A DNA stretch of 64,000 bases, taken from contig REEC01000120.1 in assembly GCA_007695285.1 (NCBI GenBank), forward strand, positions 62,001 through 126,000, written 5' to 3'. A program made the translations under genes and the position numbers. The notes under the pieces are model-generated. The model saw only the letters and a list, made by a program, of their open reading frames with translations, ran no database searches and was not told the origin of the DNA. The DNA is from Spirochaetaceae bacterium (GTDB taxonomy: Bacteria > Spirochaetota > Spirochaetia > DSM-27196 > PXBQ01). Shown in pieces: positions 17,418-22,478 of this stretch (positions are counted from its first letter, which is position 1; each line of letters opens with the position of its first letter).

Positions 17418-17651
17418 TTACTTCTCGCCCTCGGCCTTCTCTTCGGCTTCTTCCTTCTTTGCCTCGATCTTGTCCTTGATATCCGCGATGCCGATGAACA
17501 CGGCGATCAAACCGATGAACGCCGCGATGAGCGGAACCCCACCTTTCAGGAAGTCGACGACGTACGCACCCCAACCCAACGACCAGTCGACCGGGAGCAC
17601 AGAGTAGACGGCGAACAAGACGAAAACGATCCCAACCAACAATGCAACCAT
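17418..17651 (-). CDS. Small membrane protein with charged C-terminal helix
   Basis: 77 residues: two membrane helices (about 2-18, VALLVGIVFVLFAVYSVL; about 34-53, GGVPLIAAFIGLIAVFIGI) and a C-terminal Lys/Glu-rich helix (about 54-77) likely to lie in the cytoplasm. The start at 17651 is fixed by GGAGGA 5 bases upstream and by the promoter at 17736-17763. The function is unknown; such proteins often act as scaffold or stress-envelope factors, but I have no evidence here. Confidence 0.78.
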   Translation of the reverse strand: MVALLVGIVFVLFAVYSVLPVDWSLGWGAYVVDFLKGGVPLIAAFIGLIAVFIGIADIKDKIEAKKEEAEEKAEGEK

Positions 17652-17735
17652 ACAGTCCTCCACATTCTCCGATTTGACGACCACTGCCCGAGAAACGCCC
17701 ACTCTCCGTGATTCTGCGCGAGGCATTTTCCAGAT

Positions 17736-17769: not shown

Positions 17770-18069
17770 TTACCGAGACCTTCTTCGGAGTATCACGATA
17801 AGAAACCCGACCGCGATAAACGCTGTCGGGAAGACGGTCAACAGTACCTCAAAAACCGGTATCCCGGCAATAGATATTGGAGCGATCCGAACGATTCCAA
17901 AGGCCTCAAGTGTCGTAAGAACCGCTTCGCCGTACGCCACGATGGTCCCGAGGATCACGAAAACCCACGCGGTGTCGCGCGTTCGCGCCCATAGAAGAAT
18001 CGCGAGAAACGTCGCGACAGCCCCGACGCCAAGTCGAGCGAGTATAACGACCGCCTCTTCGTACGGCAT
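17770..18069 (-). CDS. Three-helix membrane protein, function unknown
   Basis: 99 residues with three hydrophobic segments (about 10-26, 33-52 and 71-93) and a final RRRSR tail, so the C-terminus is probably cytoplasmic. The start is certain: GGGGAGGAA lies just upstream, and its ATG overlaps the TAA of the preceding gene by one base (TAATG), showing translational coupling. It is the last gene of the long minus-strand operon that begins with the UVR-motif gene. I do not recognise the family. Confidence 0.75.
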   Translation of the reverse strand: MPYEEAVVILARLGVGAVATFLAILLWARTRDTAWVFVILGTIVAYGEAVLTTLEAFGIVRIAPISIAGIPVFEVLLTVFPTAFIAVGFLIVILRRRSR

Positions 18070-18932
18070 TACCGTTCCTCCCCGGTTGTGTTCGGACCTT
18101 TTCTTTGCCCTGACACCGCGGCCGCGTACGCGTCGAGTTCCGCGCGGGTCGCCTCGGACGCCGCGCATGACGGTCTCGGATACCGCGGATTTATCAAGAT
18201 ACCCGATTCCAGACACCGTGTGAACACGGCTGCGTACGCATCGGAAGAGCACACCGGGCAGAGGTACGGACCCTGCCGCCGAAAAACGGTTTCGACAGCG
18301 GGCCACTCGACCTCAATCGGGGCTAACGTCGCAAAAACCGAGAGCGAGTGCTGCAGACCCGCGAGAAACGGCGGCGGCGCGTTGTCGCCGACCGGGAGTT
18401 CAGTTTGCGACACGACGAGTTGCGGTGCGAACGCACCCGGGAACGGAAGAAGCGGCAATGCGATCTCGGCACGAGCCGGTCGCTCGAGAAACGGGCGGAT
18501 AATCCACGCGCACGCAGGGTCGCGTGCTGGGTCGCGTGCTGGGTCGCGTGCTGGGTCGCGTGCTGGGTCGCACGCAGGGTCGCGTGCTGGGTCGCATAGA
18601 TCATCGTACGAGACGGTGTGTCCCCGGATCGTGGAAATCGCGTCGAGAGCGTCCTCCATCGTCGGATACACCGCCGCGTATCGGTACTCAGGGAAGACCC
18701 GCTGTGCGGATCGGAGCACCGAGTCCGTGAAACGGCTCGGATACGAGACCAGGAGCCCTTTCTCAAACGAGTTTTTGATGTGGCGCGTCAACCTCCCGGG
18801 CCGATGACCAAGAATCGCGCGTCCGTCATCGGCGTGAAGATCGAGGTACCGACGACCGGCTTTGTCATAGAGGCACCTGCCGCGCGCGCGCGTGAATCGC
18901 GGAATTATCGCGATCAAACTCTCGTCACTCAC
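18069..18932 (-). CDS. Degenerate class-III aminotransferase-like protein
   Basis: 287 residues. The first 100 match the N-terminus of class III PLP aminotransferases (ARGRCLYDKAGRRYLDLHADDGRAILGHRP, then a helix and strand as in the real enzymes), but the protein is about 130 residues shorter than the family, and no PLP lysine or DE-x-Q motif is visible. In the middle (about 113-140) a run of seven DPAR/DPAC tetrapeptides is encoded by a 12-bp minisatellite. The C-terminal third contains CPVCSSD, a possible metal-binding CxxC. The start is GTG at 18932, overlapping the end of pcrA by 8 bp. Probably non-catalytic; the function is unknown. Confidence 0.7.
   Translation of the reverse strand: MSDESLIAIIPRFTRARGRCLYDKAGRRYLDLHADDGRAILGHRPGRLTRHIKNSFEKGLLVSYPSRFTDSVLRSAQRVFPEYRYAAVYPTMEDALDAISTIRGHTVSYDDLCDPARDPACDPARDPARDPARDPARDPACAWIIRPFLERPARAEIALPLLPFPGAFAPQLVVSQTELPVGDNAPPPFLAGLQHSLSVFATLAPIEVEWPAVETVFRRQGPYLCPVCSSDAYAAVFTRCLESGILINPRYPRPSCAASEATRAELDAYAAAVSGQRKGPNTTGEER
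18512..18595. repeat. 12-bp minisatellite, seven units
   Basis: Seven 12-bp units stand head to tail, two of one type (ACGCAGGGTCGC) and five of a second (GTGCTGGGTCGC). Each encodes four residues, DPAC or DPAR, in the minus-strand gene. The unit length is a multiple of three, so slippage changes length without breaking the frame. Confidence 0.95.
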
Positions 18933-21090
18933 TCGGCATCACCTTCTCGAGTCGCGCGTACTTCTCGAGGAAGCGCGCGTCACGACCGGACTCGAAACGT
19001 ACGACGACCACGCGCTCGCCGCGCGTGAACTCGGTCGAGACGACGACGCCGGTACCGTACTCGTCGTGGTACACGTACGTCCCCGGAGGAAACTCACCGT
19101 GCTCGGCTGCCGAGCCGCGCCCCGGTGCGAACTCGGTCGCGCGCGAAGAGTACGACGCGTACGACGCGCGCGACGGGCCGCTCGTGCCGTCAAGAGTTAT
19201 CCGTTCCGACGGAATCTCGCGGAGGAATCGGGACGGCGTACACTCCAGCGTCATTCCACGAACGCGCCGAAAACGACATGTCGTGAGGAAAAGTTCGTTG
19301 CGCGCGCGCGTGATCGCGACGTACAGAACGCGGCGCTCTTCCTCGATGTCGTCCTCGGTGCCCTCCGCCCGGGGAAAGAGCCCGTCCTCGAGGCCCGTTA
19401 CGATCACCCGATCGAACTCGAGCCCTTTCGTGTTGTGCATCGTAATCAGCGTTACGGCGGGTTTTTCGGCTTTGGCTGCGTCGTCCGCGTCGGGGTCGAT
19501 GGTCCGACTCGCGTCGAGCTCGATCGTCTCGAGAAACTCGACGAGCCCGTCGGCCGTCGCGGGGTAGATTGCGGCGGCGTTAATCAACTCGTCGAGATTC
19601 GCACGTCGCTGCGTCCCGGCGACCTCGTCCTGTTGCTCGTGAAACGTCGCGAGCCCCGACTCGGTGATCGCGGCTTCAAGCGTCGCCGAGAGCGCCCCGG
19701 ATCCGAACGTCGCACGAGCCGCTGCGACCGCGCCGAGGAACGTCTTGACGCCTTCGCGCGCGCGGCGCGATGCGGAATAGCCGCCCTCGCCCGCCGCAGC
19801 CGGAATGTCGCCGTCGTACGCGGATGCCTCCGACACGATCGCGTCTATCGTCGCGGGGCCGACGCCGCGCGTCGGTTTGTTCACGACTCGCCTGAACGCC
19901 ACTTCGTCGCGTGGGTTCGCGATCGTCTTCAGAACCCCGAGCGCGTCCTTGACCTCTTCTCGTTCGTAGAACCGAACCGAACCGACGATACGGTACGAGA
20001 TTCCAGCCTTCAGAAACTCGGTCTCGAAGAGGCGACTCTGCGCGTTTGTCCGGTACAGGATCGCGGTATGCGTGTCGTTCGTGGATCGAATGAGATTCTT
20101 GCAGTACTCGACCTCGTCGTTCTGATCGTACAGCACCGCGAGGCGCGGAAGTGGCCCATCGGGACGACGCGTCCAGAGCGTCTTCCCGAGCCGGCCTTCG
20201 TTGTTCGCGACGACATCCGACGCGAGACCGAGGATCGCGCCCGACGACCGATAGTTCTCCTCGAGCCGGACAACCGTCGTCCCCGGAAAGACCTCCGGAA
20301 ACGAGAGAATGTTTCGGACCTCTGCGCCACGAAAACGATAGATCGACTGATCGTCGTCGCCGACCACGCAGAGATACGTTTCATCACCCACGAGCTCGCG
20401 AAGAAGCAGGTACTGCGCGACGTTCGAGTCCTGATACTCGTCGACGAGCACCGCGCGGTACCGCGAGCGGATCCGGGCCTTGATCTCCGGGTTCTCGCGC
20501 AGCAGCCTGATCGGGAGCAGAATCAGGTCGCCAAAATCGACGTTACCGATCTCGCGCAACCGTTTTTCGTACGCGCGGTATCGTTCCACGAACTCCGGGT
20601 CCGGCGAAACTGCGCCCAGGTCGTCGTCGGGAGAGAGCCCGTAATCCTTCGCGCGCGAAATCCTCGTCGCGAGCCGTCCGAGACTCGACCGGTTTTCGTT
20701 CGGATAAATCGTGCGCAGAAGCGTCACGACGTCGTCGTCGTCGTAAATCGTGAAACCCGGCGAGATTCCGACGTGAACGGCGTTTCTCCTGAGCAGCCAT
20801 GCGCCGAAAGAGTGAAACGTCCGGACCATCGCGTCGGCGGCGGCCGGGACGATCCCCGACGCGCGTTCGCGCATCTCCGCGGCCGCGCGGTTTGTGAACG
20901 TCACCGCCAGGATCGAGTACGGAGTGTAGCGAAGCTCGTCGATCAGGTACGCGATCTTCACGGTGATCACGCGCGTCTTGCCGCTACCGGCACCCGCCAG
21001 AATCAGCAGAGGCCCCCCCGAGTGGGTCACCGCTTCGTACTGCGGGTCGTTGAGGTCGCGCAGATACTCGCGACGGTCCGCGCGACTCAC
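18925..21090 (-). CDS. pcrA: UvrD/PcrA-family ATP-dependent DNA helicase
   Basis: A 721-residue superfamily 1A 3'-5' helicase acting in excision repair and clearance of RecA or transcription roadblocks. Seen: the Q motif (LNDPQYEAV), Walker A AGAGSGKTRV (about 33-42), Walker B DEYQDSN, GDDDQSIYRFRGA, and the C-terminal VLYVAITRARNELFLT motif VI. The last 70 residues form a Tudor-like fold (YVYHDEYGTGVVVSTEF...RFLEKYARLEKV) that binds RNA polymerase in PcrA/UvrD. The ATG overlaps the rimO stop by 4 bp (ATGA). It is part of the long operon. Confidence 0.95.
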   Translation of the reverse strand: MSRADRREYLRDLNDPQYEAVTHSGGPLLILAGAGSGKTRVITVKIAYLIDELRYTPYSILAVTFTNRAAAEMRERASGIVPAAADAMVRTFHSFGAWLLRRNAVHVGISPGFTIYDDDDVVTLLRTIYPNENRSSLGRLATRISRAKDYGLSPDDDLGAVSPDPEFVERYRAYEKRLREIGNVDFGDLILLPIRLLRENPEIKARIRSRYRAVLVDEYQDSNVAQYLLLRELVGDETYLCVVGDDDQSIYRFRGAEVRNILSFPEVFPGTTVVRLEENYRSSGAILGLASDVVANNEGRLGKTLWTRRPDGPLPRLAVLYDQNDEVEYCKNLIRSTNDTHTAILYRTNAQSRLFETEFLKAGISYRIVGSVRFYEREEVKDALGVLKTIANPRDEVAFRRVVNKPTRGVGPATIDAIVSEASAYDGDIPAAAGEGGYSASRRAREGVKTFLGAVAAARATFGSGALSATLEAAITESGLATFHEQQDEVAGTQRRANLDELINAAAIYPATADGLVEFLETIELDASRTIDPDADDAAKAEKPAVTLITMHNTKGLEFDRVIVTGLEDGLFPRAEGTEDDIEEERRVLYVAITRARNELFLTTCRFRRVRGMTLECTPSRFLREIPSERITLDGTSGPSRASYASYSSRATEFAPGRGSAAEHGEFPPGTYVYHDEYGTGVVVSTEFTRGERVVVVRFESGRDARFLEKYARLEKVMPSE

Positions 21091-22478
21091 GACGCCTCCC
21101 GTGTGAGTAGCGCGGCCTCGAAATCAACGCCGGTCCGGCGGATAATACGCGCGCGCACGACACTCCCGGGCCGCGGGCACTCACCTGCGTAGCGCAACAC
21201 AACCGCCCCGTCGACCTCCGGTGCGTGCATGAATCCGCGCCCGAGAACGATCGACTCGCCGATCACCGGCTCCTCGACGAGCACATCGATCTCGCGGCCG
21301 ACAAACCGGCCGAGCCGTTCATCGACGATCTCGGTCTGAAGGTTCTCGAGCTCGGTTCGGCGTTGTTTCGCGACGCGCTTCGCGACGCGACTGCGCCCGC
21401 GCGAGGCGCGGTACGCCGGGGTACCTTCCTCGGACGAGTACTCAAAGACACCGAGCCACTCGACCCGAGCCTCGGCCACAAAACCGCGCAACTCATCAAA
21501 AGCTTCGTCGTCCTCGCCGGGAAACCCGACGATCAGACTCGTGCGCACGACCGCATCCGGGAGCTCGCCGCGTATCCACCGAATTAACTCCCCGTGCGAG
21601 TTACGGTCTCCGGGGCGTCCCATCGAACGCAAAACACGCGTCGAGGCGTGTTGAATCGGGATGTCGAAGTACGGCACGACACGGTCGTCGTCGCGCATTA
21701 CCCGGATGAGTTCTTTTGGAAAGCGCTCGGGATAGACGTATAACGGTCGTATCCAGAACTCACCGGGAATTTCAAGAAGCCGCCTGATCAGCGAGACGAT
21801 CTCACGCCCGTCGCGCGTGTCGCGACCGTACGATCCGAGATCCTGTGCGATCAGGTTAATCTCCTTGATACCGCGAGAGACAAAGAGCCGCGCCTCGGCG
21901 ACGATTACATCGGGGTCTCGGCTCCGCAGTCGCCCACGGATAAGAGGGATCGCGCAGAACGCACACGAGTTGTCGCACCCGTCGGCGACCTTGATGTACA
22001 CGCTTCCCGCCGGCGACAACAATCGCCGGCGGTCGCCGACAACCTCGGGCATCACCGACGGCTCACTCGCCTCGACTCCCGCAACGGGCGGCGCGACTGA
22101 CACGGGATTTCGTGGATTGGCGGCGATCAGGTCGAGAAACGCGCCGATTCCGGCAAGATCCCGGTTGCCGAACACGCCGTCGAGTTCGGGCATCTGCTGA
22201 GCGAGATCGTCCGCGTATCGCTGCGATAGGCACCCCGCCATCACGATGGTTCTCCCGGGGTAGGCCGTTCGAAACCCGAACGCGGTGTCGATCGATTCTT
22301 TCTTTGCGGGGGCGATAAACCCACACGAGTTGACGATTATGACGTCGGCCTCGTCCGACGGTGACTCGTGCCATCCGTCGGCGATGAGCGAAGAGATTAT
22401 CGTTTCCGAATCAACCTGGTTTTTCGCGCATCCGAGGCTCTCGATGTGGAAACTGCGCTGCGGAGTCGTGCGGGACAC
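21087..22478 (-). CDS. rimO: Ribosomal protein S12 methylthiotransferase
   Basis: A 463-residue radical-SAM enzyme that adds a methylthio group to an Asp of ribosomal protein S12. Seen: the N-terminal MTTase domain with three cysteines (SLGCAKNQVDSE, NSCGF, AGCLSQRY), the radical-SAM cluster CDNSCAFC (about 173-180), and a C-terminal TRAM domain. The SLGCAKNQVDSE start and the absence of MiaB-type signatures favour RimO over MiaB. The GTG start follows rodZ by 4 bases. It is tightly packed with pcrA. Confidence 0.95.
   Translation of the reverse strand: MSRTTPQRSFHIESLGCAKNQVDSETIISSLIADGWHESPSDEADVIIVNSCGFIAPAKKESIDTAFGFRTAYPGRTIVMAGCLSQRYADDLAQQMPELDGVFGNRDLAGIGAFLDLIAANPRNPVSVAPPVAGVEASEPSVMPEVVGDRRRLLSPAGSVYIKVADGCDNSCAFCAIPLIRGRLRSRDPDVIVAEARLFVSRGIKEINLIAQDLGSYGRDTRDGREIVSLIRRLLEIPGEFWIRPLYVYPERFPKELIRVMRDDDRVVPYFDIPIQHASTRVLRSMGRPGDRNSHGELIRWIRGELPDAVVRTSLIVGFPGEDDEAFDELRGFVAEARVEWLGVFEYSSEEGTPAYRASRGRSRVAKRVAKQRRTELENLQTEIVDERLGRFVGREIDVLVEEPVIGESIVLGRGFMHAPEVDGAVVLRYAGECPRPGSVVRARIIRRTGVDFEAALLTREAS

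Follow-up and report, generated by a model that had tools for sequence, protein, structure and literature searches.

A probable ancient HemL-derived pseudoenzyme family of Spirochaetota, without the PLP lysine and with a trimmed PLP domain

Gene X and its operon in the window

The window, i.e. the whole 64,000-nucleotide stretch of DNA analysed here, carries on its minus strand the genes for a RimO-type methylthiotransferase, a PcrA/UvrD helicase, a protein designated X and a small membrane protein (Table 1). The initial annotation had described X as translationally linked to pcrA and to the membrane protein, and as lying in a tight operon with rimO and pcrA. Both descriptions stand, with rimO overlapping pcrA, pcrA overlapping X, and X joined to the membrane protein gene by a TAATG junction. 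The small membrane protein gave no family match above cut-off in Pfam or NCBIfam; the query used for it in comparisons, 17770-18084, runs five codons beyond the ORF. A further membrane protein of 102 aa is encoded at 17418-17726 (-). Its match to the magnetosome protein MamI is sub-threshold (35.6 bits against a cut-off of 80), and the protein turns up again in this operon at many of the 40 named loci described below.

Table 1. Positions of X, its segments and the adjoining genes in the window, and of X loci beside tRNA genes elsewhere
Feature	Position	Strand	Remark
rimO-type radical SAM methylthiotransferase	21087..22478	-	4-bp overlap with pcrA
pcrA/uvrD helicase	18925..21090	-	8-bp overlap with X (common bases 18925-18932)
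X, class-III-aminotransferase-derived protein without PLP lysine, 287 aa	18069..18932	-	GTG start
X residues 13-106, N-terminal segment homologous to HemL	18615..18896	-	hmmsearch and hhalign
Lys53 codon	18774..18776	-	K in 38/38 X rows and 13/13 other lysine-less rows
12-bp tandem repeat, 6.6 copies, DPAR/DPAC	18517..18595	-	variable loop where PLP-domain part is absent
X residues 157-166 (IALPLLPFPG), aligned to PLP-lysine strand	18435..18464	-	no Lys; alignment
CPVC motif	18249..18260	-	not conserved among X relatives
X residues 216-275, C-terminal small-domain segment	18108..18287	-	weak match to HemL C-terminus
Small membrane protein, 99 aa	17770..18069	-	ATG overlaps X stop at 18069 (TAATG)
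X loci beside tRNA genes	L161 3332-4273, L162 3270-4220, L150 6231-7154, L184 737-1675		

Sequence resemblance between X and class III aminotransferases is concentrated at the N-terminus. Aminotran_3 (Pfam PF00202) covers residues 13-78 only, with 23.2 bits, under the 30.5-bit cut-off, and the HemL, ArgD and LysJ models of NCBIfam match the N-terminus, all far under cut-off. When the X family profile was compared with PDB sequences, HemL came first (best E 1.1e-13), the match comprising the N-terminal 90 residues and, weakly, a further stretch at the C-terminus, and the best 13 of the 27 matches were all GSA aminomutase/aminotransferase (HemL). Alignment of the X family with class III enzymes by hhalign gave a probability of 97.5 over the N-terminal 91 columns. 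X is about 137 residues shorter than the 424-aa HemL 2e7u, close to the shortfall of about 130 residues estimated at the outset.

Predicted fold and the catalytic site

An AlphaFold2 model of X was built from an alignment of 38 rows, consisting of the window protein and 37 of the 40 relatives recovered in the genome scan described below, and has a mean pLDDT of 86.6 and a pTM of 0.84. A Foldseek search with this model gave 463 PDB matches (E <= 0.001), the best being HemL 2e7u (2.7e-10), and VIA-align superposed residues 2-277 of the model on residues 24-424 of the 2e7u chain, with a Z of 19.4 and an rmsd of 3.2 for 266 residues. This extent of superposition places X in the aminotransferase fold, an assignment that rests on this one model, and nearly the whole of X is therefore predicted to be that fold with some parts removed. 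The 12-bp repeat sits in a lower-confidence loop of the model. Copy number and order of the DPAR/DPAC units differ between the window and its sister species (L089).

The catalytic machinery is missing from this fold. In an alignment of 28 rows, the PLP-lysine column has K in 8/8 catalytic rows and in 0/20 lysine-less rows, and the lysine strand of HemL aligns with the invariant-proline motif LPLLPFP of X; the middle part of X is placed less surely than both ends of the protein. Retention of an active-site lysine in the old strand is ruled out by this column. A distant lysine is not conserved either, since beyond residue 74 no column has Lys in at least 40% of the 38 X rows. The aspartate of the DE strand that contacts the pyridine nitrogen is a gap in 7/7 X rows of the 28-row alignment, and the YHG region is gapped as well. 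Schiff-base PLP catalysis is impossible without the lysine and the pyridine aspartate. Because both are absent, X, judged from these alignments, cannot work by Schiff-base PLP chemistry, although it may bind a ligand or PLP non-covalently. The first description of X, a degenerate class III aminotransferase with no visible PLP lysine, is thus borne out by the HemL-like fold, the sub-cut-off Pfam match and the vacant lysine column. Its suggestion that a CPVCSSD motif near the C-terminus may bind metal fares differently: a CxxC pair occurs in 3/38 X rows, two of which are the window protein and its sister, and a metal-binding role through CxxC was rejected.

The 38-row alignment has 16 invariant columns, and R38, P160, P163, R146, W217 and Y223 are fixed or nearly fixed in X and not in the HemL rows. 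Most X proteins are basic, with a pI above 8 in 36/38, the window protein itself having a pI of 6.95; some HemLs are basic too. From such residues X could be imagined as a novel enzyme or ligand binder with the old pocket put to a new use, for example through Lys53 or the new arginines, given that Lys53 is shared by every X row and every other lysine-less row (the HemL rows having H, Q and H), and that R38, R146 and W217 are fixed in 36, 37 and 36 of the 38 X rows. We nevertheless regard this as improbable: the alignment shows neither the DE strand nor the YHG region in X, K or R also occurs at position 53 of some HemL sequences (6w80 and 2e7u, two of the three PDB alignments), and no substrate can be named.

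Relatives, selection and descent

In a first search, an X match was found in 57/61 related genomes, some of the weak matches being possibly true aminotransferases. A profile of 11 members was then used to scan 84,980 species genomes by one conserved peptide pattern, a procedure that misses relatives without the pattern. It gave 99 pattern matches, 40 of which encode X relatives, and all 40 are from spirochaetes. Within the class Spirochaetia the relatives are widespread and 253-349 aa long. A full-length close relative with the active-site lysine, which would have made the window copy a decaying pseudogene, was not found among the 38 aligned proteins; all of them are short, and none has a conserved lysine at the PLP-lysine site.

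Compared with the sister species over 249 codons that exclude the repeat loop, X has a dN/dS of 0.22-0.23 and no stop codons, and eight neighbouring genes have dN/dS of 0 to 0.14 in the same comparison. X thus evolves faster than its neighbours yet is under purifying selection. The reduced length of X relative to the enzyme and its tandem repeat could point to a full-length aminotransferase gene in decay; that pseudogene reading is refuted by the dN/dS, the intact frame, the short form common to all 38 aligned relatives and the retention of X in genomes of about 0.9 Mb, and we give it practically no credence. A dead enzyme that is nonetheless kept, as was originally proposed, agrees with the purifying selection and the wide retention.

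Retention is not universal. Among the genomes listed, no X match was seen in one genome of the same order and 18 of the same class, mostly of family f16, so X is not indispensable. Several f16 genomes of about 1.2-2.4 Mb (g49, g54 and others) have no match or a weak one only, and g24, g62 and g75 have strong ones; the patchy occurrence in this family is lineage-specific loss. X is present in four Borreliaceae-like genomes (0.9-1.5 Mb) and in the Treponema-sized G115 (1.14 Mb), which, judged by size, gene order and group codes, probably stand for Borrelia and Treponema pallidum. A class III aminotransferase above the Pfam cut-off was found in 0/5 of these, the best hit in the Borreliaceae-like genomes being X itself, below cut-off; the sixth genome of that comparison, G059, has X and one true aminotransferase.

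These small genomes bear on whether X could pair with an active class III aminotransferase as the inactive half of a heterodimer. SPTLC1/LCB1, the lysine-less fold-type-I subunit of serine palmitoyltransferase, is a non-catalytic partner of this kind, and in the window genome three catalytic class III aminotransferases might serve as the active half. The small genomes without such enzymes argue against an SPTLC1-like role, and an obligate partnership of this sort is rejected as the conserved function; as an explanation of X in general it seems to us very unlikely.

Relatives of X outside the class Spirochaetia illuminate its descent. Full-length lysine-less proteins occur there in families f37, f46 and f55 of the phylum. 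In nine long relatives, one of them (L169) cut by the contig end, the lysine site is occupied by S, N or T (HemL has K) in 9/9, and the DE-strand aspartate is kept in 9/9. Half-shortened or short lysine-less forms of 257-331 aa occur in families f35, f41, f43, f47, f52, f57 and f65. In sampled f42 and f62 genomes the listed matches are weak, and the ORFs that contain them, at 436-531 aa, are as long as ordinary enzymes. Trees of 28 rows group the 20 lysine-less rows into one clade, with support of 99/99 on 155 N- plus C-terminal columns and 100/96 on 91 N-terminal columns. This clade adjoins HemL, the nearest single HemL being L170 (81/78 and 85/78), and a branch of 24 rows on the HemL side has support of 100/99 on 155 columns and 86/98 on 91 columns. 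Given this branch and the HemL identity of the best PDB sequence matches, X is placed by sequence comparison in the HemL lineage rather than with ArgD-like enzymes. The trees are based on 91-155 columns and include some long branches, S_L186 above all, and two rows of odd composition, for which reason the branching order inside the lysine-less clade is unsure. On the simplest reading the lysine was probably lost before the shortening, because the long members retain the domain without the lysine.

Gene neighbourhoods, candidate partners and known systems

In 37/40 named loci, the end of pcrA lies no more than 150 bp from X, with gaps of -38 to 69 bp. In the other three, pcrA is 3.2 kb away (L073), 1.3 kb away (L086) or not seen (L083). 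Where 4 kb or more of upstream sequence is available (29 loci), pcrA adjoins X in 26 and rimO adjoins pcrA in 18. Downstream of X there is a membrane gene in 17/32 loci, and rplM lies within 1.8 kb in 17/28. In a second sample of 80 genomes with X, 75 of them with a PcrA match, the two genes are adjacent in 41/75, namely in 41/47 genomes elsewhere and in 0/28 of the Treponema-like family f24. Conservation of the gene order in other spirochaetes, put forward initially as a check, therefore holds for the pcrA-X pair in most of the named loci and fails for f24. In seven f24 genomes PcrA is encoded on the same strand as X, 1.6-10.7 kb upstream. Across nine f24 neighbourhoods that were read, no constant partner of X was found; the neighbours are gatB, mnmE, the TP0584 family, tsaD, a transposase, hisH, an ABC transporter, EamA and an ABC ATPase. 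Within the class, pcrA is the commonest companion of X, one context among others.

Gene orders at other loci, with names assigned by eye, are diverse. The Borrelia-like locus L117 reads uvrD-gatC-gatA-gatB-X-rplM-rpsI, and L161 of f24 reads gatA-gatB-X. Outside the class Spirochaetia, X adjoins flhB and murG, murE and miaA, rny, or groL; one such locus (L149 5060-12185, genome G069) reads flhB-X-murG-ddl-ftsQ-ftsA-ftsZ. Away from pcrA, X is sometimes beside the tRNA genes gatB, mnmE, tsaD or miaA (Table 1). These neighbours may be chance as far as a link of X to tRNA modification is concerned.

The X of the Borrelia-like locus (L117 4533-5324 (-), between gatB and rplM) would presumably be BB0340, going by the gene order of B. 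burgdorferi. In two papers, BB0340 is named a methionine sulfoxide reductase (PMC3147059, PMC5013056). For the Borrelia-like X, no Msr family match was obtained in Pfam up to E 10. Provided that the presumed identity with X is right, the name is possibly a misnaming. A mention of TP0679 in PMC10782976 concerns TmpB and is not relevant to X. Paper searches, from whose coverage subscription literature was mostly absent, found nothing on the X family.

PcrA is a plausible leading candidate for the partner of X, being encoded directly upstream in most lineages. A stronger version would make X an accessory factor of PcrA, made from the same transcript, that modulates PcrA loading or activity by binding to the helicase. 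The adjacency at the named loci and in the genomes outside f24 is what this version would lead one to expect, but the pair is kept in no f24 genome, gatCAB intervenes in the Borrelia-like genome, the relatives outside the class adjoin other genes, and shared expression alone can preserve a gene pair; we hold the stronger version to be doubtful. The monomer model of X carries no information on partners.

We consider it probable that X belongs to an ancient pseudoenzyme family of Spirochaetota derived from HemL, in which the lysine has been lost and the PLP domain trimmed, and which likely acts by binding. A HemL-type class III aminotransferase would have lost its catalytic lysine first; in the class Spirochaetia a large share of the PLP-binding domain would then have been removed, leaving in X the N-terminal segment, a reduced sheet and the C-terminal small domain. 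The starting points are the computed homology, fold, lysine absence, purifying selection and wide retention of X. A conserved and selected fold without a catalytic site, co-transcribed with pcrA in most lineages, is best fitted by a binding or scaffold protein, and we infer that X acts by binding another molecule. The varying neighbours of X where pcrA is lost count against this interpretation. A bolder proposal, which we make only tentatively, is that the lysine-less, shrunken core arose early in spirochaetes and that X is still needed across most of the phylum, also in small genomes of the Borrelia and syphilis-treponeme type, as a partner in DNA or RNA metabolism, of PcrA in the first place. 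If true, this would be a phylum-typical pseudoenzyme with preserved intermediates from full-length to stripped.

To our knowledge, PLP fold-type-I pseudoenzymes are few. X apparently occurs across much of a phylum, and the surviving intermediates suggest an order of steps, the lysine being lost and the domain then removed. It persists in small pathogen-sized genomes without any class III aminotransferase above cut-off. Among genes usually called hypothetical, it is a named and testable target, with PcrA as a candidate partner.

X resembles three known kinds of protein to different degrees. With HemL (PF00202) it shares the fold over model residues 2-277, the N-terminal segment and the C-terminal small domain, and HemL is its nearest catalytic branch; X differs in its shorter chain, the missing PLP lysine, the DE and YHG regions missing in the alignment and a Pfam score under the cut-off. 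The full-length lysine-less class III proteins of other spirochaete families (for example L130, L133, L135, L167 and L168) belong to the same clade, with the lysine replaced and K53 present. Unlike X, they are 359-395 aa long in the ORFs read and retain the DE aspartate and the greater part of the large domain, and pcrA is not adjacent in the two loci read (L151, L152). SPTLC1/LCB1 is likewise a PLP-fold protein that has lost its lysine. However, it comes from another subfamily, has its domain intact and depends on an active paralogue, whereas the small spirochaete genomes offer X no such paralogue.
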